Part shown: positions 3,011-52,431 of the stretch, piece by piece | How positions within the stretch are numbered: position 1 is the first letter of the stretch | How the letters are laid out: every line of letters begins with the position of its first letter | DNA from: Pirellulaceae bacterium | GTDB taxonomy: Bacteria; Planctomycetota; Planctomycetia; Pirellulales; Pirellulaceae | NCBI GenBank assembly: GCA_020852965.1 | Contig: JADYZV010000111.1 | Coordinates: 124,001-188,000, forward strand | Length of the DNA: 64,000 nt | Direction of reading: 5' to 3' | The notes under the pieces: model-generated | What the model saw: only the letters and a program-made list of their open reading frames with translations | Told to the model about the DNA's origin: nothing | The model's database searches: none | Made by a program: the position numbers and the translations under genes

Positions 3011-3351
3011 CGTTTGATTCTCCTGTTAGGTGATTTTGATAGTTTACATGTAATGTACTGGGTGTCAAGGGCGTTCCTGGTATAAATTTGCAGAACGGTT
3101 GTTGTGTGGCAATTGGCAGTTTTTTGGTGCGGCCACCTGTTCACCAATCAGGATAATATTCGATCGGGCGAATAAAGCTCGCAAAGGCTCCCGAGCGATT
3201 TTGCTTGTACACCAACAATCACCAGCCCTCGTCGGTAGGATCGCTCAACAGTATCTCGCCAGGCAGACGCCAACCGATCCCAGCCAATAGGACGGTAGCA
3301 AAGATGCCAACGATAGCTATTCGTTTCGCGGGCGACCACTTCGATACCCAC
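3011..3351. other. Intergenic region without a recognisable gene
   Basis: The first part is the MarR promoter region. A short minus-strand frame (3219-3422) encodes one plausible membrane helix (KRIAIVGIFATVLLAGIGWR) followed by DPTDEGW and a stop, but I cannot match it to a family. It abuts the pirin relic and is probably decayed sequence. Confidence 0.4.
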
Positions 3352-3606
3352 CTATCGAACACCGCGATCAAGCCAGATCTGCAAAAAGTGATTTGAATCA
3401 GACGCCGACGGATTGTACTCACTGTGCGTGATCCCCGTTCCCGCCGACATCATTTGAATATCATCGGGCGTGATGATCGCTCCCTTGCCGGTACTGTCGT
3501 TGAATTGCAAGGAACCATCGAGCACGCTGGTAACATTTCCCAGCCTATTTAGAAGACGCATAAAAACCGACCAGCCTCTCCTATCCACGCGTACGCGCCC
3601 GCTCAC
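3352..3606 (-). pseudogene. Pirin-family relic (central cupin segment only)
   Basis: Residues from about 25 to 80 of this frame match the pirin core: [18 protein letters not shown], then [20 protein letters not shown] and NHFLQIW. In intact pirins (about 230-290 aa) this block is preceded by the metal-binding HPHRDMEI segment and followed by a second cupin domain. Here both are missing: upstream is unrelated sequence and the frame stops right after [10 protein letters not shown]. It is therefore a truncated relic with the first metal-ligand histidines lost. Confidence 0.7.
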
Positions 3607-3627
3607 TTTTCAGTCGAAGATGTCGGC

Positions 3628-4359
3628 TTACATCACATCACCACTATTAGGCCCCAGAGTCTGCCCCAGGTAGAGATCTCCGTCGGGGGAGGACGCCAGC
3701 AGCAGCGCTGTTGGTGCAACTTCGTCAACGGTGCCGAAGCGTCCAAGAGGCAACGCCGCTTCTTTCTCTCTAACCCAGTCCTCACTCACTCCGCCGAGCA
3801 TCGCAGTCATGATGGGTCCGGGAGCGATCACATTGCTGAGCACATTGTGCGGTGCCAGTTCCAGCGCCAACGACTTGGTCAGGCCCAGGACACCCGCTTT
3901 GGCCGCCGTGTAATGCGCCATACCCACGCCCCCTTTTAGCGCCAACTGCGACGCAATATTAATGATCCGTCCAGCCTTTTGCTCCACCATATGTGGTGCA
4001 ACGTAACGGCACGTCAGAAATATCCCGCGAAGGTTCACCGCCAGCATGTCATCAAAAGTTTTTGGTGACATTTCCAGTATCGAGCATTCGTTCAATATGC
4101 CGGCGCTGTTCACTAGAATGTCGATACGCCCGTATCGCGCGATAACGGCCTGTACCAAGGCCTCGACCGACTCACTCGAGGTGACGTCAACGCGGTGGGT
4201 ACTACTCTCACCTCGGATAGTTGCCGTGCAGGATTCTTCGTTTAGATCCGCCAGAGCCACAGTCGCACCTTCGGTCTGATAGAGTTCAGCAATGGCCCGG
4301 CCTATGCCGCTACCCGCGCCGACTATCAATGCAATTCTATTCTTCAATTTGTTCATCAT
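3628..4359 (-). CDS. SDR family NAD(P)-dependent oxidoreductase
   Basis: 243 aa, full length for a classical short-chain dehydrogenase. The Rossmann motif is GAGSGIG near residue 15, the NSAG motif is at VNSAGIL, the catalytic Ser lies in IINIASQLA and the catalytic YxxxK in [12 protein letters not shown] follows. The acidic D38 in LADLNEE suggests NAD preference. The substrate cannot be told. Its start overlaps by 23 bp the 3' end of the hydrolase-OsmC relic upstream. It appears intact although its neighbours on both sides are relics. Confidence 0.92.
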
Positions 4360-4678
4360 GAGATTCCTTGAGATTGGTGCTGTGGATGATGATTTCGGAT
4401 TGCAGGGTGCGGTGGACGGGGCAGCGGTCGGCGATTTCCATCAGGCGAGTGGGTTGAGCGTCATCGAGTTCGCCAAGCAATTCGATCGTCTTGTCAATAC
4501 GGTCAATGCGGCCTTCCTTGGTTTCGCAGTCTTCGCAATCCTCTGCGTGGATATCTTTGGAACAGGTGAAGCAATGCGCGAAGATGGCAAAGTCGCGAGG
4601 TTGCGCAGCGGGCATATCAAGCCTGGCTGCCAATGAGACACCCTGAGACCCTTCAAATTCAATTTTTTTGATCAGCAT
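4337..4678 (-). pseudogene. Alpha/beta-hydrolase-OsmC fusion with a large in-frame internal deletion
   Basis: 113 aa open frame made of two ends of a known bifunctional family of roughly 400 aa. Residues 1-42 match the hydrolase N-terminus ([24 protein letters not shown]). From residue 43 it jumps to the OsmC C-terminal part ([20 protein letters not shown], then [15 protein letters not shown]). About 280-300 residues are missing, including the serine nucleophile, the rest of the hydrolase fold and the first OsmC cysteine; the second cysteine (CPVH) remains. No frame is lost at the junction. Probably non-functional, though it is still translatable and overlaps the SDR start. Confidence 0.8.
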
Positions 4679-4684
4679 TTTTAC

Positions 4685-4773
4685 TATCTATTTAGAGAAG
4701 TATCTATTTAGAGAAGTGAGGTGTAAGCGATTTTCCTGCTTCATCAGGGGGCATCCGCATCAGGGGGCATCCG
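4685..4773. repeat. Two perfect 16-bp tandem duplications
   Basis: TATCTATTTAGAGAAG occurs twice head to tail at 4685-4700 and 4701-4716. CATCAGGGGGCATCCG occurs twice at 4742-4757 and 4758-4773. The second pair spans the stop codon of the downstream DoxX gene. Both look like recent slippage-type duplications with the same unit length. Confidence 0.85.
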
Positions 4774-11847: not shown

Positions 11848-12968
11848 AAGGTCGCACCATCATTCGCCGTGGTGGTAGGGTAAACCGAAGATTGAAGAAT
11901 GACGCGATCGCCAGACTTTAGCCCACTAAGTACTTCGATGCGATCGGGCATTCCTAGCCGACCGGTCTTGATGAACCGCCTTTCAATTCGATCATCCTCC
12001 GTCACCACCTCGACGAACTCCAATTGGCCAATGCTCTGAATGGCATCCGTTGCCAGACACAAGTGGCGTCGCTGTCCGGCCGGAATGCGCAATCGGCCGA
12101 ACATTCCTTCGAACAGGTTATCCGAGCGCGGAACGCTCGCTTTGACGAGAAACGAACGACTCGGGGCATCGGCTTGAGGAACAATTTCGTCGATCGTCGA
12201 TTCCACCTCGCGTTGGATTGCGTCGATATAGACGCTCAACTTGTCTCCCACACGCAGCCCTACGGCTAAGTGTTCCGAGACGGGCGACTCCAGCCGCAAG
12301 GAGGTGGCATCGTAGAGCACCAAGAGTGGCTCTCCTGGACGAACTGTATCACCGGGTTCCGCGAGTCGTTCCACGATACGCCCGCTCCGGGATGCATGGA
12401 TGGTCGCGTAGGATAGAAGTACCTTGGATTCGTTGACGGCATGCTCGGCTCCCAATTCTTCTGCGATCGCAACTTCCAGTCGACGTTTGGACTCATCGAA
12501 CTCTGCACGCGACACAACATTTTGTTGACTTAACAGCTTGCTGCGATCATGGCTCAAATCCGCTTCTTTGCGTGTCGCCGTGGCTGCGATCAGGGACTGC
12601 TGCGCCTGCTCTAGTCGTGCTTCGAGGTCTTTACTATCGAGTCGTACTAGCAGGTCACCCTGATTGACCTGATCTCCGGCTGAGACCGCGATCTCATCGA
12701 TGGTCGCCAACACCTTGGCGGAAACCACCGTTCGGCTGGCGGCTTTCAAGGTTCCAATGGCTTCCTCGATATAATCCTTTGTCACCTCATGAACTTCAGC
12801 AGTTGGTTGGTTCGTAAGCTTGCGGTGAGTCGCCAGCGGCGTGCTGGGCTGGATTTTGGAATTGAACGCCCCCGCGAGCCAGCCGATCACCAGCGCTAAG
12901 CAGGCCAACCCGACCGCTGCCGGCACGATCTTCCATAGCACCCTCAAAACATTCAATAAGCGATTCAT
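11844..12968 (-). CDS. RND efflux periplasmic adaptor (membrane fusion protein)
   Basis: 374 aa. The start at 12968 follows a GAGAGG site and puts a single membrane anchor at residues 10-32 (VPAAVGLACLALVIGWLAGA). After it come a beta-barrel/lipoyl part (VLATIDEIAVSAGDQVNQGD, LLVRLDSKDLEARL), a helical hairpin (LEQAQQSLIAATATRKEADL, LLSQQNVVSRAEFDESKRRL) and the second lipoyl half (GRIVERLAEPGDTVRPGEPL). It is the partner of the permease, whose start overlaps its stop (ATGA). No outer-membrane channel gene is adjacent. Confidence 0.92.
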   Translation of the reverse strand: MNRLLNVLRVLWKIVPAAVGLACLALVIGWLAGAFNSKIQPSTPLATHRKLTNQPTAEVHEVTKDYIEEAIGTLKAASRTVVSAKVLATIDEIAVSAGDQVNQGDLLVRLDSKDLEARLEQAQQSLIAATATRKEADLSHDRSKLLSQQNVVSRAEFDESKRRLEVAIAEELGAEHAVNESKVLLSYATIHASRSGRIVERLAEPGDTVRPGEPLLVLYDATSLRLESPVSEHLAVGLRVGDKLSVYIDAIQREVESTIDEIVPQADAPSRSFLVKASVPRSDNLFEGMFGRLRIPAGQRRHLCLATDAIQSIGQLEFVEVVTEDDRIERRFIKTGRLGMPDRIEVLSGLKSGDRVILQSSVYPTTTANDGATL

Positions 12969-16499: not shown

Positions 16500-16555
16500 G
16501 TGGCGCAAGCTTCCAGCTTGCGGTCCAGAAAACGCAGTTGTAAGCTTACGCCACG
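16500..16555. repeat. Family B hairpin repeat, copy B1
   Basis: Inverted arms TGGCGCAAGCTTCCAGCTTG and TAAGCTTACGCCACGG enclose a short loop. It is upstream of the deaminase and before the YdhR-like gene. The same core recurs at 21.3, 24.3, 27.0, 29.5 and 52.4 kb. Confidence 0.8.
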
Positions 16556-21229: not shown

Positions 21230-21248
21230 TACATTATCCAAAGAATGA

Positions 21249-21304
21249 CGTAAGCTTTCAGTTGGCGGGTAGCCCAGGTTCGCACACTGGAAGCTTGCGC
21301 CACG
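21249..21304. repeat. Family B hairpin repeat, copy B2
   Basis: Arms CGTAAGCTTTCAGTTGGCGG and ACTGGAAGCTTGCGCCACGG. It sits just upstream of glgX and 0.7 kb upstream of atpC, close to one breakpoint of the inferred ATPase rearrangement. Confidence 0.7.
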
Positions 21305-21323
21305 GGGAACAAGAAGCGAAACT

Positions 21324-21584
21324 CTAAGAAGCCGAGAAGCGGATCAATGGCTTCAGCATGCAGTCTTCTTTGGTTTCCATCATGTGCAGCGCCTTGCCGA
21401 CGTCCTGGAAATCAAACTGGTGTGTCGTCAGCGGCGAAGGGTCGACACATCCGTGCTCGATCAACTTCAACAGCCGGGACATCCGCACGTTTCCGCCGGG
21501 GCACAATCCTGTGCGAATCACCCTGTCCACGAACTCCGTACGCCCGATGCCCTGCATCACAGACGCTTGCATCAGATTAGCCAT
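21324..21584 (-). pseudogene. Zinc-type alcohol dehydrogenase relic
   Basis: 86 aa frame starting at an ATG with an AGGAAA site. Residues 25-86 match the C-terminal end of NAD-dependent zinc alcohol dehydrogenases: RTGLCPGGNVRMSRLLKLIE, CVDPSPLTTHQFDFQDVGKA and ETKEDCMLKPLI. The catalytic domain and the Rossmann fold (about 270 residues) are missing, while the start and ribosome site are kept. It looks like an in-frame internal deletion, again leaving an open frame. Confidence 0.7.
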
Positions 21585-22029
21585 ATCCGTTTCCTGTCTC
21601 AGTAGGGGGAAGCATGCCGCTTGATAGGCACATCGCAAGCTGGATACACTCAAGCATGGTTGCAATCGATGTGCCATTGCAACTGTGATCCTCGGTACGA
21701 ATCTTGCACTGGCGGCCTAAGCCTCCAAATTTGCGATCGGTGGTCGAACACAAGCTCAGTGCCTATGCCCACTTTCTCTCGGAGCATTCATTGACCAGTT
21801 GACCAGCTCGCCTTGCGCAGCGGCAGCCTGCTACGGCTCAGCGCGAAACGATTCCCCCGAGTCGATGCGAATTGTATAGCGCCTAGCCGAAGTGGCCAGT
21901 GGATTGGGAGTGTTACTACTACGGAGAGTTGACTCGAACGGGACCTGTCAATGATCACAAGCCAAATATCCGCAGCAAACTTCCAACCTAGCTTCCCGAG
22001 CGATGCATACGACTCCCCGAGGTTTCGAG
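21585..22029 (+). promoter_or_regulatory. Non-coding region upstream of the atpC-G block
   Basis: About 445 bp without a credible gene. If atpC-Q-R-B-E-F-A-G is transcribed as read, its promoter must lie here, because the usual first gene atpD is not upstream. I could not pick out a confident -35/-10 pair. A GAGG ribosome site precedes the atpC ATG. Confidence 0.4.
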
Positions 22030-22425
22030 ATGAGATTGAGGCTCAACACACCCAACGAGGTCATGCTGGACGAAGCGGTGACCAAGGTGACCGCCGAGGG
22101 AATTCATGGACTTTTCTGCCTTTTACCCCAGCACATCGATTTTCTGGCCGCATTGGTTCCTGGTTTGCTCAGTTGGGAGGACGAGTCGGGCGATGAAGCA
22201 TTCGCCGCTGTCGGAAGTGGCGTCTTGGTCAAGCAAGCCGATCTAGTGATGGTTTCGACAGAGCAAGCGACGCATGGCGGCCAGCTGAGCGAATTGAAAC
22301 GAATCGTTCGTGAAGAGTTTTCTCAGTTGGACGAGCGGCAGCGCGCCGCGCACGAGGCTATCGCGATGATGGAAGCGAGCTTCCTGAGGCAAACGATGAA
22401 CTTGGTCCGAGACGAAGTGGTGTGA
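22030..22425 (+). CDS. atpC: N-type ATPase subunit epsilon
   Basis: 131 aa. The ATG at 22030, seven bases after CCGAGG, gives MRLRLNTPNEVMLDEAVTKV, the beta-sandwich domain; blocks TAEGIHGLFCLLPQHIDFLA and VGSGVLVKQADLVMVSTEQA follow, and the helical C-terminal part ends with RDEVV. It is the F1 central-stalk subunit, of the N-ATPase kind judging from the operon (AtpQ and AtpR follow). In typical N-ATPase operons atpD lies directly upstream; here it does not. Confidence 0.88.
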   Translation: MRLRLNTPNEVMLDEAVTKVTAEGIHGLFCLLPQHIDFLAALVPGLLSWEDESGDEAFAAVGSGVLVKQADLVMVSTEQATHGGQLSELKRIVREEFSQLDERQRAAHEAIAMMEASFLRQTMNLVRDEVV

Positions 22426-22484
22426 ACCTACGGCTCGCGTTGTTTAATGTTAAGAATTCGGCACCCTCAAGCCACGGAAGTAGA

Positions 22485-22769
22485 ATGAATCGGCGCGAAA
22501 CCGTGCGAAAAGACGTGGAAGCCAAACGCTCACGCAAGCTTGATGCGCGCGAGCAAGGCGACCGTTCAGCTTGGTTCGGGCTAGGGATGTTTGGCTTGGT
22601 CGGATGGTCGATCGTGGTTCCCACATTACTGGGTATCGCGGCGGGGATTTGGATCGACGAGCGATGGCCGAGTCGGTACTCGTGGACCTTGATGTTGCTG
22701 GTGTTTGGTGTGCTCGTCGGTTGTTTGAACGCGTGGTGGTGGGTGATTCGGGAGAATGAAAATGAATGA
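22485..22769 (+). CDS. atpQ: N-ATPase subunit AtpQ (AtpI-like membrane protein)
   Basis: 94 aa. A charged N-terminus (RRETVRKDVEAKRSRKLDAR) is followed by two membrane helices around 35-57 and 67-88 (GLVGWSIVVPTLLGIAAGIW, WTLMLLVFGVLVGCLNAWWW), as in AtpI/AtpQ. Start at 22485 follows CGGAAG. AtpQ is diagnostic for N-type ATPase operons and is thought to help assemble the rotor ring. It overlaps the start of atpR by 14 bp. Confidence 0.85.
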   Translation: MNRRETVRKDVEAKRSRKLDAREQGDRSAWFGLGMFGLVGWSIVVPTLLGIAAGIWIDERWPSRYSWTLMLLVFGVLVGCLNAWWWVIRENENE

Positions 22770-23103
22770 CAGTCTGGGAATCACGTTCGCGTTCTTGGCG
22801 GGCCTCGCCGCAGGCATGTTTTTTCTGTGGTCGTTGTGGTCGAGCGTTCGCAGGCTGCCAAACTCGCAAAACCCAGCGTTGCTGATGCTGACGGGTTTCC
22901 TGGTGAGGATGACCGTGGTCCTTGGCGTCTTGGGAGGATTGGCGATGCGCGGTGATTGGCGATGGCTGGTCGCCGCCGCCATAGGTTTCGCGCTGATCCG
23001 CACAGTTGGTGTGCGCGTTATCGCGCAGCGCGACCTAAGTTTCCAGCTTGGGGAAAACAACCCGTCGCAAACTGGAAATCTACGCCATGGGAGAGCGGGA
23101 TGA
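22756..23103 (+). CDS. atpR: N-ATPase subunit AtpR
   Basis: 115 aa, three hydrophobic helices (FAFLAGLAAGMFFLWSLWSS, LLMLTGFLVRMTVVLGVLGG, WRWLVAAAIGFALIRTVGVR). The conserved Arg within the second helix is the hallmark of AtpR, proposed to shield the c-ring carboxylate during assembly. Two ATGs (22756 and 22762) are available. Its TGA overlaps the ATG of atpB by four bases. Confidence 0.85.
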   Translation: MKMNDSLGITFAFLAGLAAGMFFLWSLWSSVRRLPNSQNPALLMLTGFLVRMTVVLGVLGGLAMRGDWRWLVAAAIGFALIRTVGVRVIAQRDLSFQLGENNPSQTGNLRHGRAG

Positions 23104-23786
23104 GTGGCGTGCAAATTACGGCCGATCAATGGGTGATCTGGCAATCGGAAACATGGCCGATGGTCAGAATTAATGCAACGCTTGTCTTCACTTGGGGCCT
23201 AATGCTGATCTTGGTCGTCGGATCGTGGCTCGTCACGCGGCGTCTCACCAGCGATACCGCGATTCCACGTTGGCAGAATCTGCTCGAAGTGCTTGTCACA
23301 GGGATGCGAGACCAGATTCGCGAGGTCAGTCACCAAGACCCAGGAGTCTATCTTCCATTCGTGGGGACGTTGTTCCTGTTTATTGCAGTCGCAAATCTAC
23401 TTGCCATCGTTCCCGGCTATATCCCTCCTACGGGATCGCTTTCCACGACTGCGGCGCTGGCCACCTGTGTCTTCGTTGCCGTGCCGATTTTTGGAATCGC
23501 GTCGCAAGGGTTCGGCGGATATCTGAAACAGTACGTCCGCCCAACGCCATTGATGCTACCATTCAACGTCATCGGCGAACTGTCACGCACCTTGGCGCTG
23601 GCAGTGCGCCTTTACGGAAACATGATGAGCGGCACAGTGATTGCAGCCATCCTGATCGGATTCGTTCCGTTGTTCATTCCGATCTTGATGCAAATTCTCG
23701 GGCTGCTGACGGGTATGATCCAAGCTTACATATTTGCCGTCCTGGCGATGGTTTACATCGCTTCAGCCACCCGAGCGGCCAAATAG
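23100..23786 (+). CDS. atpB: N-ATPase subunit a
   Basis: 228 aa integral stator subunit forming the ion half-channels. Five to six helices; the essential Arg is R170 in ALAVRLYGNMMSG, and NVIGELSRTLALA precedes it. The N-terminal helix (TLVFTWGLMLILVVGSW) and QVYIPPTGSL-like loop (NLLAIVPGYIPPTGSLST) fit the N-ATPase branch. It is coupled to atpR by ATGA and followed by a 200-bp gap with a family A repeat. Confidence 0.92.
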   Translation: MSGVQITADQWVIWQSETWPMVRINATLVFTWGLMLILVVGSWLVTRRLTSDTAIPRWQNLLEVLVTGMRDQIREVSHQDPGVYLPFVGTLFLFIAVANLLAIVPGYIPPTGSLSTTAALATCVFVAVPIFGIASQGFGGYLKQYVRPTPLMLPFNVIGELSRTLALAVRLYGNMMSGTVIAAILIGFVPLFIPILMQILGLLTGMIQAYIFAVLAMVYIASATRAAK

Positions 23787-23809
23787 CGAGAAAAACGGGT
23801 TAGTTGCGA

Positions 23810-23957
23810 ATGCTTCAAGTGGTCTGTCAAGAAACAATTTATGGGTAGTGGACGAGGTTACGAGTCCCTTCGAATCGTTACACGTCGGGGACTCGCAACC
23901 TCGTCCACTACCCCAACCCAAAAAATCAAGACTGGATGATCACTAGAAGCTTACGCC
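23810..23957. repeat. Family A nested palindromic element, copy 3
   Basis: The central hairpin GGGTAGTGGACGAGGTTACG (23843) pairs with CGCAACCTCGTCCACTACCC (ending near 23914), nearly perfect over 30 bp. Outer arms are GCTTCAAGTGGTCTGTC at about 23812 and GGATGATCACTAGAAGC at about 23934. It separates atpB from atpE, so it may act as an RNA hairpin that sets the relative level of the c subunit. Confidence 0.85.
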
Positions 23958-23988
23958 GCTTTACCGCATACATTATCAGGAACACATC

Positions 23989-24255
23989 ATGGACAGTGCC
24001 ACCGCGATCGCACTCGCATCCATCGTCACGGCGGGAATCACGATTTCCGTTGGTTCGATTGGCCCGGCGCTCGGTGAAGGGCGAGCCGTTTCACAAGCTC
24101 TGAGCAGTATCGCCCAGCAACCGGATTCGTCAAACATTATCACTCGAACTCTGTTCGTCGGCTTGGCGATGATCGAATCGACTGCCATTTACTGTTTCGT
24201 GGTCGCGATGATTCTGCTGTTTGCCAATCCGTTCTGGAATCACTTTGTGGAGTAG
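23989..24255 (+). CDS. atpE: N-ATPase rotor subunit c
   Basis: 88 aa two-helix hairpin. The ion site on helix 2 is E63-S64-T65 with Y68 (MIESTAIYC), the pattern of sodium-type rings such as Ilyobacter. On helix 1 the position of the sodium-ligand Gln is Glu here (E30 in PALGEGRA), giving two carboxylates per hairpin as in many N-ATPases. Ion specificity therefore cannot be settled from sequence. The end LLFANPFWNHFVE is typical. Preceded by AGGAACACATC. Confidence 0.93.
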   Translation: MDSATAIALASIVTAGITISVGSIGPALGEGRAVSQALSSIAQQPDSSNIITRTLFVGLAMIESTAIYCFVVAMILLFANPFWNHFVE

Positions 24256-24283
24256 GCGACTGGCTTGCCATGGAATCTTGTGG

Positions 24284-24337
24284 GGGCGAGCTTCCAGCTT
24301 GCCTTGGTTCGTATACCGCAAGTTGGCTGCTGCGCCA
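24284..24337. repeat. Family B hairpin repeat, copy B3
   Basis: Arms GGCGAGCTTCCAGCTTGCC and GCAAGTTGGCTGCTGCGCCA lie between atpE and atpF and end two bases before an alternative atpF start (ATG 24339). Confidence 0.65.
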
Positions 24338-24350
24338 AATGAAAAAACTT

Positions 24351-25091
24351 ATGTCGATTGATTGGTTCACTTTCGTTGCTCAGATTGTCAACTTTCTGAT
24401 CTTGGTCGGACTGTTGCGATACTTTTTGTATGGTCCTATCGTGCGCACGATGCAAGAGCGTGAGGGCAGGGTTACGCAAAAACTCAGCGATGCAGAGGCC
24501 GTACAGGCAGACGCTGAACAAAAACGAAAACAACTCGAAGCAGAAATGCAAGCGATCGAGCAACAGCGAGACAGCCTCTTGGAGCAGGCTGTCCAAGAGG
24601 CCGACGCCGAGCGACAACGGTTGGTTCGCGACGCTCGAAACGAAGTTGAAAGCCGTCGCCAACAATGGAACCAAGCCTTTGAACGCGAGCAACGAGATTT
24701 GGTCAGTGCAACTCAGCGTCAGATTCAGATAATAAGTCTACAGGCGGCACATCACACGATTTCCCGATTGTCCGACACGGACTTGCAGAGCCAAATATGC
24801 CGAGTGTTAATTCGGCAATTGCAATCGCTCGACGAATCCGCACGTAAAGAAGTGCAGATGCAACTGGAAGAGGCACAGGGTATCGTGTTGGTACGTAGTA
24901 CGAAACAGCTTGGCGAAGAAGATCGTCAACTATTGACCAGCACGATCAGCCAAACTTTCCAACAAGGCTCCGACGTGCGTTTCAAAATTGACGAATCACT
25001 TGTATGTGGATTGGAAATTGAAGCCGGTGGATATAGCCTGCGATGGAACGCCGCCGATACGCTCAATCAGTTGGAGGCCAGCGTGGTGTAA
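24351..25091 (+). CDS. atpF: N-ATPase subunit b (b/delta type)
   Basis: 246 aa. One N-terminal helix (MSIDWFTFVAQIVNFLILVG) then a long charged coiled coil (about 30-150) rich in Gln, Glu and Arg. The extra C-terminal region (IVLVRSTKQLGEEDRQLLTS, IDESLVCGLEIEAGGYSLRW) resembles subunit delta, as is usual for N-ATPases, which lack a separate atpH. Start chosen at MSIDWF; ATG 24339 adds MKKL. The stop TAA lies within a family B type motif (GTGTAAGCTTCCAG), so the last residues may be repeat-derived. Confidence 0.9.
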   Translation: MSIDWFTFVAQIVNFLILVGLLRYFLYGPIVRTMQEREGRVTQKLSDAEAVQADAEQKRKQLEAEMQAIEQQRDSLLEQAVQEADAERQRLVRDARNEVESRRQQWNQAFEREQRDLVSATQRQIQIISLQAAHHTISRLSDTDLQSQICRVLIRQLQSLDESARKEVQMQLEEAQGIVLVRSTKQLGEEDRQLLTSTISQTFQQGSDVRFKIDESLVCGLEIEAGGYSLRWNAADTLNQLEASVV

Positions 25092-25230
25092 GCTTCCAGT
25101 GCATCATCCGCACTTAGCTAGCGCGTAGTGGCCGAGCTTACGAGTCCCTGACGTTTATCGAATCAATCGGACTCGTAGCCTCGTCCACTAGGTGCAAACT
25201 CATAATCAAAAATGGATGAAGCACGAGCTT
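25086..25230. repeat. Family A nested palindromic element, copy 4 (joined to a family B half-site)
   Basis: Begins with TGTAAGCTTCCAGTGCATCATCC overlapping the atpF stop, then the central hairpin CGTAGTGGCCGAGCTTACGA (25124) with ACTCGTAGCCTCGTCCACTA (ending 25190), and an outer arm ATGGATGAAGCACGAGCTT near 25212. Lies between atpF and atpA. Confidence 0.75.
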
Positions 25231-25276
25231 GTGTTTTGTGCTAACGGCAAGCTAGACATATACCCCACGAAAAACG

Positions 25277-26797
25277 ATGACAACCTATCAATCTGTTCTC
25301 GACCAAGCGGCGATTCAGTTCGATGCAAACCTACGTCAATACCAAGACGAGGCGAAACTAACGCCCGTCGAGATTGGCGTCGTCGAGCAGGTCGAGCGTG
25401 GCGTTGCCCGAGTGCGTGGACTGCCCCACGTCCAAATTGACGAGATGTTACGATTTGCAGGTGGCCAGCGTGGCTATGCGTTTAATCTCGACCCCGACGA
25501 AGTTGGTTGCGTCCTGCTGGACTCCGGAGAACGAATCGCCGCAGGCACTCGTGTCGAAAGGATGCACACGGTCCTGGACACACCCGTCGGCGATGAACTG
25601 CTGGGCCGCGTGATCGACCCCGTCGGTCGGTCGCTCGACGGAGGGCGGTCGCTCGACACTTTGGCACGTCTACCTTGTGAACGCGATGCACCGCCGATCA
25701 TGCACCGATCGCCAGTCACGGTACCACTGCAAACGGGCTTGAAAGTCATTGACGCCATGATCCCGATCGGTCGTGGTCAGCGGCAACTGCTGCTGGGCGA
25801 TCGCCAGACCGGTAAGACCGCGATCGCCGTTGATACCATCATTAACCAGCGCGACCGCGACGTCGTCTGTATTTATTGCAGTATCGGGCAGCGAAGTACG
25901 GGGGTAGCACGGGTTATCGACAATTTGCGGAAACACGATGCCCTTTCGCATACCGTCGTTGTCATCGGAGCCAACGATGCTCCACCGGGCGTTCAGTTCA
26001 TCGCCCCCTACGCTGCCACGACGATCGGCGAGTACTTTATGCAACAAGGCCGTGATGTGTTGATCGTCTACGATGATCTGACATCTCACGCGCGTTCGTA
26101 TCGACATCTTTCCTTGCTGCTTCGGCGACCGCCCGGTCGGGAAGCCTTCCCAGGTGACATCTTTTACGTTCACTCGCGTTTGCTCGAACGCTCCACTCAC
26201 CTCCAGCCGAGTCACGGCGGCGGATCGCTGACCGCACTGCCCATCATTGAAACCGAGGGCCAGAACGTTTCCGCTTACATTCCCACCAACTTGATCTCGA
26301 TCACGGACGGACAAATTTATCTATCGCCAACGCTGTTTCGCAAAGGCATCCTGCCCGCCGTGGATGTGGGCCGTAGCGTATCGCGGGTCGGCGGTAAGAC
26401 GCAATTGCCGGCCTATCGAGTAGTCGCTGGCGACCTGCGTTTGACCTATTCCCAGTTCGAGGAACTCGAACGGTTTGCTCGATTCAGCAGCCAGTTGGAC
26501 GAAGACACTCAGGCCACGCTGACTCGAGGTCGCCTCATTCGCGAAATCCTGAAACAGCCTCAGTTTCACCCCTTGACCCTGACGCAGCAAATCGCATCGC
26601 TGGTTGCCGTCACCCGAGGCACGCTCGATGGAGTGCAAACAGACCAAGTACTCGGCCTGGAATTGGCGATACAGGAGGCTCTCCAGAAACAAGCCCCCGA
26701 GCTGTGCCAGGCAATGGAAGCGGGTGAGAAGCTCAGTAGCGAACAAGTGCAGCACGTCGAGGATATTGCCACAGGAGTCGTGCATGCCCACGCTTGA
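25277..26797 (+). CDS. atpA: N-ATPase subunit alpha
   Basis: 506 aa, full length. Non-catalytic nucleotide-binding subunit of F1: Walker A GDRQTGKT at 174-181, [20 protein letters not shown], the [11 protein letters not shown] block, [20 protein letters not shown] and [20 protein letters not shown]. The N-terminal region ([20 protein letters not shown]) is complete. The end ([13 protein letters not shown]) overlaps the start of atpG by 14 bp, implying coupled translation. Confidence 0.95.
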
Positions 26798-27707
26798 ATC
26801 TCTACACCGCCAGATCGCAACCGCCGAGGATCTCGGTTCCGTCGTTACAACCATGAAAACGCTCGCCGCAGTTAGCATCCATCAATACGAGCGCGCCGCC
26901 GACTCATTGGCTGACTACAATCGCACCATCGAACTCGGCCTGCAAGTCATCCTGCGGAGTCACCCTTGGCGTAGGCTTCCAGTTTGCGGCCAGCCGCTAT
27001 CACCGTCGTCGCAAGCTGGAAGCATGCGCCACGGGGCGATCGTGTTTGGCAGCGATCAAGGCATGTGCGGCCAATTTAACGAACAGATCACGGCAATGGC
27101 AATCCAGCGGAACACGATTCCTCCGGTGGCAGCCTGGGTCGTCGGCCAACGAGTCGCCCCCACACTGGCGGACGCCGGTTGGTCGATCGATCAAACGTTT
27201 CGCATCCCAACTTCAGTCCTAGAGATTTCCGATTGCGTCAGCGATCTATTGGCGAGCGTGGAACAACTGCGCCGTACTCGCGATCTGACAACGGTGCGAA
27301 TCTACTCCAACACTCGATCTTTGGCCGCCACCTACCAACCCCACGAAAGACAACTGCTGCCGATCGACCCGGACTGGTTGGACGACTTGCAAAGGCGCAA
27401 GTGGGACTCGCGTTGCTTGCCAACATACGGCGGTGACCCGGAGAAACTGATGTCATTGCTAGTTGGCCAAAGTCTATACGTGTCGCTCTACCGAGCATGC
27501 GCGGAATCGCTGGCGAGCGAGAACGCGAGTCGAATCGCTGCGATGCAAGCGGCGGAAAAGAACATCGACGAAACACTCGGCGACTTGAACACCGCATTTA
27601 AAACCAAGCGACAATCCGCCATCACCGAAGAACTGCTGGACGTCGTAATCGGCTTCGAGGCCCTCAAAAAAACTCGAGCTTTGTCGACATATAAATTTAG
27701 CGATTAG
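26784..27707 (+). CDS. atpG: N-ATPase subunit gamma with a repeat-derived insertion
   Basis: 307 aa. Start ATG 26784 overlaps atpA. The N-terminal helix ([20 protein letters not shown]) and C-terminal helix ([35 protein letters not shown]) form the rotating coiled coil; [19 protein letters not shown] is the conserved Rossmann-like block. Residues about 61-84 ([20 protein letters not shown] and MRHG) are encoded by a complete family B hairpin at 26966-27034, 69 bp long and in frame. It falls in a surface region before the Rossmann-like domain, so the protein may tolerate it. Confidence 0.92.
26966..27034. repeat. Family B hairpin repeat, copy B4, inside atpG
   Basis: Left arm TTGGCGTAGGCTTCCAGTTT and right arm GCAAGCTGGAAGCATGCGCC pair at 19 of 22 core positions, with CACGG following as in copies B1 and B2. 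The 69-bp unit keeps the atpG frame open. It is the only copy inside a conserved gene. Confidence 0.85.
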
Positions 27708-27712
27708 CCGTT

Positions 27713-27750
27713 TTGGCGTAGGCTTGCGGCTGACTGCAAGCTCTCGCTAC
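27713..27750. repeat. Decayed family B half-element
   Basis: TTGGCGTAGGCTTGCGGCTG followed by CTGCAAGCTCTCGC directly after the atpG stop. It lies at the second breakpoint region of the inferred atpD rearrangement. Confidence 0.4.
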
Positions 27751-27791
27751 TGTATCCCCGTTCACGCTCCTTGGAGGATTGGGAGTTGTGT

Positions 27792-28063
27792 AAACCACGT
27801 AACGCACGAAGGACACGAAAAGGAATCTCTACTGGTGTTCTTGGTGGTCCTGCAGTGAGTCAGTGAGATGCGAGGTAAGGAGCATTATTGAAATACGTTT
27901 CAAAGATGAAGGTTGCAAAACTATGGAAGCGATATTCGAGTTATTCAAAGAGCGATATAAACCAATCGTCCACTAGAAGCTTTTGCGGATGGAGTCGTGG
28001 GTGTACTAAACAATTAAAAAAGAACAGAGCCAGGCTTTCGTGTACTTCGCGTTTTTCGTGGTC
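27792..28063 (+). mobile_element. Family C miniature element, copy C1, with GxxExxY-like frame remnant
   Basis: Ends are inverted CACGAA-type repeats: AACCACGTAACGCACGAAGG (27792) and TTTCGTGTACTTCGCGTTTT (28036). Inside, the frame 27881-27976 reads IIEIRFKDEGCKTMEAIFEL then FKERYKPIVH and stops; it fits the N-terminus of GxxExxY proteins (E-x-L-F-K-E-E-S-Y-x-I-x-G-A). The interior is similar along its length, in opposite orientation, to the element at 50.0 kb. It fills the gap between the convergent atpG and atpD genes. Confidence 0.6.
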
Positions 28064-28094
28064 AACAAACGAACTAGCTGCAAACGGATGCACG

Positions 28095-29582
<1,488 letters not shown>

Positions 29583-29612
29583 TCACCCCATTTTCAGACT
29601 GAGCAGATGCGA

Positions 29613-35417: not shown

Positions 35418-35475
35418 GACCACGAAAAACACCGGCAGAGATTTCTTTCGTGTGCTTCGTGGGTTTCGTGGTTAA
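35418..35475. mobile_element. Family C miniature element, copy C2 (ends only)
   Basis: GACCACGAAAAACACCGGCA and TTTCGTGTGCTTCGTGGGTT, inverted, with about 10 bp between the arms. It lies between the ATP-grasp and ovoA genes. It keeps the ends of copies C1 and C3 but has lost the interior. Confidence 0.7.
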
Positions 35476-35533
35476 AAGTATTTCCAATGTTCCAACTTTG
35501 TGACCGCTTATACAATAACTCTGGCGAGGTTTG

Positions 35534-49987: not shown

Positions 49988-50044
49988 ATCTAAACAGCAA
50001 GTGGCATAAAGTAAGGTGTAACCGATCACGAGTCAGTCGTTTGT

Positions 50045-50303
50045 TGACCACGAAAAGCACGAAGGACACGAAAGGTGGTTCTGTTCTTCTTCAATTGTTT
50101 CGTGCACCCCTAGATTTCATCCTCGAAATATTTTAGTGGACGAATCGTTCATATTGCCCTGTGTAAACTTTGGATTGCGCTCCCATGATTCTGCAACTTC
50201 CTTCTTTGAACAGTATTTCAGCATTGCTTATTACATCATTGCTGGATCGCAAAAAACAGCCGCAGAGTTTTTTTCGTGTCCTTCGTGTGTTTCGTGGTTA
50301 ATA
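50045..50303 (-). mobile_element. Family C miniature element, copy C3, with GxxExxY-like frame remnant
   Basis: Ends: TGACCACGAAAAGCACGAAG at 50045 and TTTCGTGTCCTTCGTGTGTT with TTCGTGGTTAAT ending 50303. On the minus strand the frame 50225-50133 reads NAEILFKEGSCRIMGAQSKV, YTGQYERFVH and a stop, parallel to the frame in copy C1. Both copies stop at the same VH codons, just after the same point of the parental frame. It fills the 363-bp gap before the GxGYxYP gene. Confidence 0.65.
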
Positions 50304-50350
50304 CAACTCACAACCCTCCAAGTTCGTGAACAATTAAAGTAAGGTTTGCC

Positions 50351-52364: not shown

Positions 52365-52431
52365 GTGGGGTAGGCTTCCAGCTTGCCTTTTTAGAAACAT
52401 TCGAGAAATGCAGTTCGGAAGCTTACGCCAC
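52365..52431. repeat. Family B hairpin repeat, copy B6, overlapping a stop codon
   Basis: Arms GTGGGGTAGGCTTCCAGCTTGC and GCAGTTCGGAAGCTTACGCCAC. On the minus strand the right arm provides GTGGCGTAA, which is the end (V-A-stop) of the ceramidase-like gene. The gap 52229-52364 has no gene. Confidence 0.75.

Follow-up and report, generated by a model that had tools for sequence, protein, structure and literature searches.

The gamma-subunit gene (atpG) of an N-ATPase operon from a Pirellulaceae bacterium contains, in frame, a palindromic repeat that belongs to a dispersed family, and this gene is intact. The repeat was analyzed in the window, which is the whole stretch of 64,000 nucleotides, and in the genome to which the window belongs. 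A complete palindromic mobile repeat probably entered atpG in the lineage of the window after the parting from the Rhodopirellula group (our label for genus g342), and was tolerated in a loop of the protein.

Results

A palindromic repeat is located in frame within atpG

AtpG matched the TIGR03323 model over its full length (positions 1 to 285 of 285) with a score of 378.5 bits, well above the curated cut-off of 282.35. The first-pass annotation, which reported a palindromic repeat lying in frame inside the ATPase gamma gene, was correct on this point: the two arms pair at 22 of 26 positions on either side of a 21-nucleotide spacer and the reading frame is open (Table 1). The assignment of both arms to a repeat family, designated family B, was also confirmed. 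Of the 46 arm positions, 41 in the atpG copy agree with the consensus. Twenty copies from this genome, not including those of atpG and atpR, served to build a covariance model. This independent model recovered the atpG copy from position 1 to 59 of 59 with 54.4 bits and an E-value of 4.7e-11, the E-values of this model being rough. The score is comparable to those of intergenic copies.

Table 1. Positions in the window of atpG, atpR, and copies of the repeat family.
Feature	Position	Strand	Details
atpG, N-ATPase gamma subunit	26784..27707	+	307 aa; TIGR03323, PF00231
Family B palindromic repeat within atpG, 67-bp core	26966..27032	+	Residues 61-83, in frame; pairing extends to 26963-27035
atpG palindrome, left arm	26963..26988	+	22/26 positions complementary to right arm
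atpG palindrome, right arm	27010..27035	+	22/26 positions complementary to left arm
atpR, N-ATPase AtpR subunit	22756..23103	+	115 aa; PF12966 at residues 10-91
Second in-frame copy, AtpR C-terminal tail	23030..23088	+	Residues 92-111; 35.4 bits, E 3.2e-6
Intergenic copy 5' of the N-ATPase operon	21245..21303	+	54.5 bits
Copy between atpE and the likely atpF start	24281..24338	+	42.9 bits on the minus strand, 35.4 bits on the plus strand
Shortened copy directly 3' of the atpG stop	27713..27750	+	22.7 bits, E 0.005
Copy at or upstream of the start of the inverted beta gene (ORF 28095-29573, minus)	29519..29591	+	53.9 bits
Further window copy	16500..16554	+	64.2 bits
Further window copy, 67 bp as in atpG	52365..52431	+	58.8 bits

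In the AlphaFold model of the gamma subunit (mean pLDDT of 90.3), the value falls to 70 for residues 61 to 70 and to 52 for residues 71 to 80, with residues 73 to 78 below 50. The repeat segment is predicted to form a low-confidence loop within an otherwise confident fold.

The repeat family is dispersed in the genome

The family consensus consists of GTGGCGTAAGCTTCCAGCTTGCG, a spacer, and the reverse complement of GTGGCGTAAGCTTCCAGCTTGCG. Searching the complete genome (8.37 Mb, 199 contigs) with the covariance model gave 102 matches up to an E-value of 1, almost all of them paired, one per strand at a given place. These matches correspond to 52 places, with a best E-value of 0.01 or less in 48 of them. 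The working list also comprises 52 places: 51 of those found genome-wide, the weakest (C59, E-value of 0.87) having been dropped, and the shortened copy at 27713. Three listed copies are shorter than 50 bp. The core is mostly 55 to 59 bp in length and is exactly 67 bp in six copies, including that of atpG. The other five also share the 21-nucleotide spacer length with atpG. A half-site pattern matched the genome 33 times, versus 3 for the reversed control, and the arm pattern matched the 64-kb window 6 times, versus 0 in 100 shuffles. At least three of the six reading frames are open in 43 of the 49 copies of at least 50 bp. The family is dispersed and probably mobile.

An outer inverted repeat, GTGCGGAAAAT/ATTTTCCGCAC, was present on both sides at 9 or more of 11 positions in 8 of the 52 listed copies. 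It was absent from the six copies of the N-ATPase operon, including those of atpG and atpR. A RAYT transposase was considered as the mover and was not retained: the genome has seven matches to Y1_Tnp (PF01797), two of them near a contig end, and no repeat copy was found in the stretches of 3.5 to 6.2 kb around any of the seven. There was likewise no sign of selection for an RNA structure: compensatory changes were not in excess of shuffles (changes on both sides of a pair in 9 cells for 20 copies, versus 8.9).

The family was also detected in other genomes. A copy is located just 3' of the a-subunit gene of the outgroup genome G559 (L196:5757-5812; 35.2 bits, E-value of 3.6e-6), indicating that the family is not limited to the lineage of the window. 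In the whole genomes of two relatives, half-site matches on both strands numbered 345 in G404 (0 for the reversed control) and 531 in G618 (1 for the control), those of G404 being mostly, among the matches listed, of the variant GGGATAAGCTTCCAGCTTGT. Local clusters of the repeat were present on contigs C899 and C192 of G402, a genome of the same genus.

The gamma loop varies in length and, among the loops compared, contains the repeat only in the window

The gamma comparison comprised 144 rows, some of them identical, of which 140 were used and 4 lacked a readable GSDQG anchor. The segment between the first helix and this anchor is variable in length among gamma proteins. The anchor is most often found at residue 80 (54 of 140 rows). 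It is located at residue 88 in AtpG of the window, at residue 91 in the five closest rows, and at residue 78 in the next two (L142 and L143). The five closest rows (L039, which is Rhodopirellula europaea 6C and gives the group its label, and L138 to L141, L139 being from G565 and sharing the loop of L039) represent four genomes and are 65 to 68% identical to AtpG of the window. Relative to the window, the four closest genomes thus have 3 more loop residues and the next two rows 10 fewer, which rules out a simple insertion of 23 residues. The first-pass annotation, which held that the repeat adds about 23 residues, was thus inaccurate as worded.

Among the 138 distinct gamma loops, rows without an anchor being left out, the repeat was present in that of the window only, the next best loop matching 24 of the 46 arm positions. 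The first-pass annotation had regarded a homologous, non-palindromic segment of the same length in related gamma subunits as evidence against its proposal. In the closest gammas, the corresponding segment is indeed non-palindromic and of about the same length (28 residues versus 25 in the window), and this observation removes the claim of a simple insertion. It leaves the repeat itself intact because the loops of the Rhodopirellula group matched the repeat no better than codon shuffles. The left arm was matched at no more than 13 of 23 positions in L138 and L140 (669 and 477 of 5000 codon shuffles do as well, respectively) and at no more than 11 of 23 in L141 and L039 (3376 and 2913 shuffles, respectively). 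The covariance model, run with default filters, gave no match in these loops up to an E-value of 10. The presence of a decayed repeat in the loop of the Rhodopirellula group is unsupported by the codon-shuffle comparison. No empty site of equal loop length was found among the compared gammas, and the longer, unrelated loop of the four closest genomes prevents the boundaries and the net length change of the insertion from being fixed. Within this set of sequences, the gamma repeat appears to be confined to the lineage of the window.

A second copy of the repeat forms the C-terminal tail of AtpR

The Pfam match of AtpR ends at residue 91 and the repeat starts at residue 92. The atpR copy matched 36 of 46 arm positions, a value reached by none of 3000 codon shuffles. 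The in-frame location of this copy and of others elsewhere in the genome contradicts the first-pass claim that the family is otherwise found only between genes.

In four genomes of the Rhodopirellula group (L192 to L195), AtpR is also 115 residues long and ends with a peptide close to that of the repeat, containing RD-x-SFQLA and, near the end, LRP or LHP. The DNA of these tails matched 29 to 33 of the 46 arm positions, and 0 of 3000 codon shuffles reached this level in any of the four. The covariance model responded weakly to L192 (11.3 bits, E-value of 4.1) and gave no match for L193 to L195. AtpR of the next relative, L196, ends at AQEAL and is devoid of the tail. More distant AtpR tails are of variable length, the outgroup evidence coming from L196. 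Among the four genomes, pN/pS was 0.44 to 0.75 for the tail versus 0.07 to 0.15 for the body of the protein, and the four SFQL codons showed synonymous differences only in all five AtpR sequences. These values suggest that the tail is under weak constraint at most, SFQL being kept. As RNA, the atpR copy has lost its hairpin (z-score of -0.26), and the corresponding stretches of L192 are unremarkable (z-scores of -0.76 and -1.49). The AtpR event thus looks old and retained with a decayed palindrome, and the gamma copy looks younger.

In-frame copies are present in other genes

The first-pass annotation had also suggested a search of the genome for family B copies inside genes, and several were found. 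Twelve open reading frames were inspected closely for the 52 listed copies. We counted as internal cases atpG, a histidine kinase, a permease-kinase and, less firmly, an O-antigen ligase, in addition to the C-terminus of AtpR. The in-gene sites examined are loops, linkers, and termini. Homologues free of the repeat were found for the kinase, for the permease, and for AtpR (one outgroup).

In the PAS-HisKA-HATPase kinase, the in-frame repeat occupies residues 213 to 236, between HisKA (115-174) and HATPase_c (243-350). All 19 aligned homologues are devoid of the repeat: 17 of them show a gap of 21 residues and the other two (L285 and L286) have five extra residues at this place. Locus L244 (1114-3360) encodes a fusion of an amino-acid permease and a Ser/Thr kinase. 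The repeat coincides exactly with the junction of the two, at residues 455 to 474 between the permease domain (15-424) and the protein kinase domain (482-735). This protein has matches at an E-value of 1e-60 or better in 133 of 240 family genomes, including that of the window. Among the matches listed, those found elsewhere end by residue 505, and those that extend past residue 466 read through a stop. Five genomes of the same genus encode the permease, and the 5 kb surrounding it yielded no kinase. In the O-antigen ligase (L247), the in-frame repeat is located in a loop that is naturally variable. By eye, the repeat peptide is missing from those homologues whose alignment covers the site; three rows of the alignment fall short of it and three are duplicates of other rows. 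A clean insertion was not retained for this protein since the loop is variable and some homologues (L305 and L310) are similar in length to the query.

In G402, a DUF2291 gene contains an in-frame copy (L324:13772-13844) that agrees with the consensus at all 46 arm positions. Another copy of G402 lies close to the beginning of a PF07632-matching gene, whose true start is uncertain. At the same locus L324, a full copy (12146-12215) provides a stop codon at 12152-12154. An open reading frame of 600 residues without a Pfam match (L240) is a candidate only. Seven loci (L241, L243, L248, L250, L258, L264, and L280) were dropped because the repeat is near a possibly false upstream start, and L274 was dropped as a doubtful in-gene case.

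The N-ATPase operon is rich in repeats

Besides gamma, the N-ATPase subunits scanned were alpha, a, c, I, and R, and all five pass their models. The usual order of the N-ATPase genes and the presence of this enzyme in R. baltica are reported in PMC4154653. In the window, the beta gene is located downstream of the gamma gene and inverted (28095-29573, minus strand). In L192, it is the first gene of the operon (3335-4738, plus strand). Six of the 52 listed copies are located within 8.3 kb around the operon (21245-29591), a density far above the genome average, and those at 21245, 27713, and 29519 are perhaps near the break points of the move of the beta gene. Weak half-sites at 24247-24269 (17 of 23 positions) and 25083-25105 (15 of 23), which were not counted as copies, coincide in part with the atpE and atpF stop codons and look as though they supplied TAG and TAA. 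Two other repeats are present in the window. The first (CGAGTC...CCTCGTCCACTA) is found in operon junctions at 23846-23911 and 25125-25190, and also at 1165-1227 and 2394-2456. The second (TTTCGTGTxCTTCGTGxGTTTCGTGGT and its inverse) is scattered at 27770-28072, 35442-35510, and 50037-50336.

Discussion

Origin of the repeat in atpG

The proposed acquisition in the lineage of the window would involve the entry of a full copy of the short palindromic mobile repeat into atpG, by transposition or copying, following the split from the Rhodopirellula group. The repeat would have landed in the loop that follows the N-terminal helix and precedes the next domain, a region that tolerates changes in length, and may have replaced or displaced resident residues there. 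Since several frames of the repeat are free of stop codons, atpG would have stayed open and the repeat would be read as about 23 loop residues, with a near-neutral effect on the rotary motor. The family would repeat such entries at the ends of proteins, in linkers, and in loops; the AtpR tail would represent an older, retained case. The absence of visible resemblance, by eye, between the atpG spacer and the spacers of the other 67-bp copies counts against this explanation.

An insertion predating the split from the Rhodopirellula group is unlikely. It would imply that the longer gamma loop of this group is a decayed copy and that the copy of the window stayed intact or was refreshed from another. 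The same course seems to have occurred in AtpR of the same operon, the gamma loops of both groups exceed those of the next two relatives (anchor at 91 and 88 versus 78), and L138 and L140 have LRHLPAS where the window has WRRLPVC. However, the gamma loops of the Rhodopirellula group remain at the level of codon shuffles, whereas no shuffle reaches the AtpR tails of that group, and the covariance model detected nothing in these loops. It is still less probable that the palindrome is kept for an mRNA hairpin, for example one slowing ribosomes or setting the expression of atpG. The predicted hairpin is very stable (-45.8 kcal/mol, z-score of -7.07, 0 of 200 shuffles as stable), but such a hairpin is expected from any fresh copy of the family, paired changes show no excess over shuffles, and the AtpR copy has lost its hairpin. 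That atpG is a decaying gene, in which case the repeat would not inform on a working subunit, is very improbable: the operon is rich in repeats and its beta gene has been moved and inverted relative to L192, but the open reading frame, the full-length match well above the curated cut-off, the confident predicted fold, and the subunits that pass their models argue against decay. An origin of the palindrome by chance or codon choice can be dismissed, as the inverted-repeat score of 14 is above the maxima of 100 codon shuffles (10) and 100 synonymous shuffles (12), the independent model recovers the atpG copy at an E-value of 4.7e-11, and at most 24 of 46 arm positions are matched in the 137 other gamma loops.

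If atpG acquired its copy late, the young case (gamma, with an intact hairpin) and the old case (AtpR, with a peptide partly kept and a hairpin lost) form an unusually clear pair. Such a pair offers a way to test how a mobile repeat comes to be tolerated and is later absorbed as protein. The family appears to supply new protein sequence recurrently, although in small amounts. More tentatively, and with a probability that we place somewhat short of even, it may act in planctomycete relatives as a standing generator of coding sequence, contributing the gamma loop, the old AtpR tail kept across species, the linker of the permease-kinase fusion, and inserts in the histidine kinase, the ligase, and a lipoprotein, some of these peptides being later selected.

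Comparison with known systems

We found no paper on this repeat family in the open-licence PMC literature, searched by title and start of abstract. The N-ATPase, or alternate F1Fo ATPase, of the window resembles others in that the scanned subunits fit their models, and differs from that of L192 by the position and orientation of the beta gene. REPs carrying the GTAG or CGTC tetranucleotide are, like the present family, short palindromes that are mostly intergenic with some located within ORFs (PMC3733652). According to the same source, REPs lie wholly inside ORFs in several species, including Opitutus terrae (section 15), over half of the inserts in ORFs are dimers or groups encoding 20 to 30 residues, and the ends of GTAG REPs often give neighbours a stop codon. 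Its main text names Planctomycetes among the REP phyla and does not contain the words Rhodopirellula and Pirellula. The family of the window ends with GTGG...CCAC instead of these tetranucleotides and, in contrast to RAYT-linked REPs, which adjoin Y1_Tnp genes, has no copy in the 3.5- to 6.2-kb stretches that surround the seven matches to Y1_Tnp.

Like the present family, the bacterial MITEs with open reading frames described in PMC2229807 (ERIC/RU-1 and the 107-bp Correia element) are small, non-autonomous, and joined in frame to genes. Putative terminal inverted repeats are the outer repeats of the 8 listed copies mentioned above, which the atpG and atpR copies lack. According to PMC2229807, protein-coding repeats are best documented in Rickettsia, in which palindromic elements of 105 to 146 bp are inserted in 19 reading frames. 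The Rickettsia elements, like the family of the window, are short palindromes found both between genes and in frame within conserved genes. They differ by their length and host, the core of the present family being mostly 55 to 73 bp and its hosts being planctomycetes near Rhodopirellula. The comparison with Rickettsia elements made by the first-pass annotation was apt, since the family is also in frame in several other genes. Both show in-frame insertion with repeat-free homologues (19 of 19 for the histidine kinase; the tail absent from AtpR of L196), a likeness of behaviour only. In-frame palindromic repeats are therefore a known phenomenon, exemplified by Rickettsia elements and intragenic REPs. 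The present family extends repeat-to-protein cases to large-genome planctomycetes, with two of them in a single rotary ATPase.
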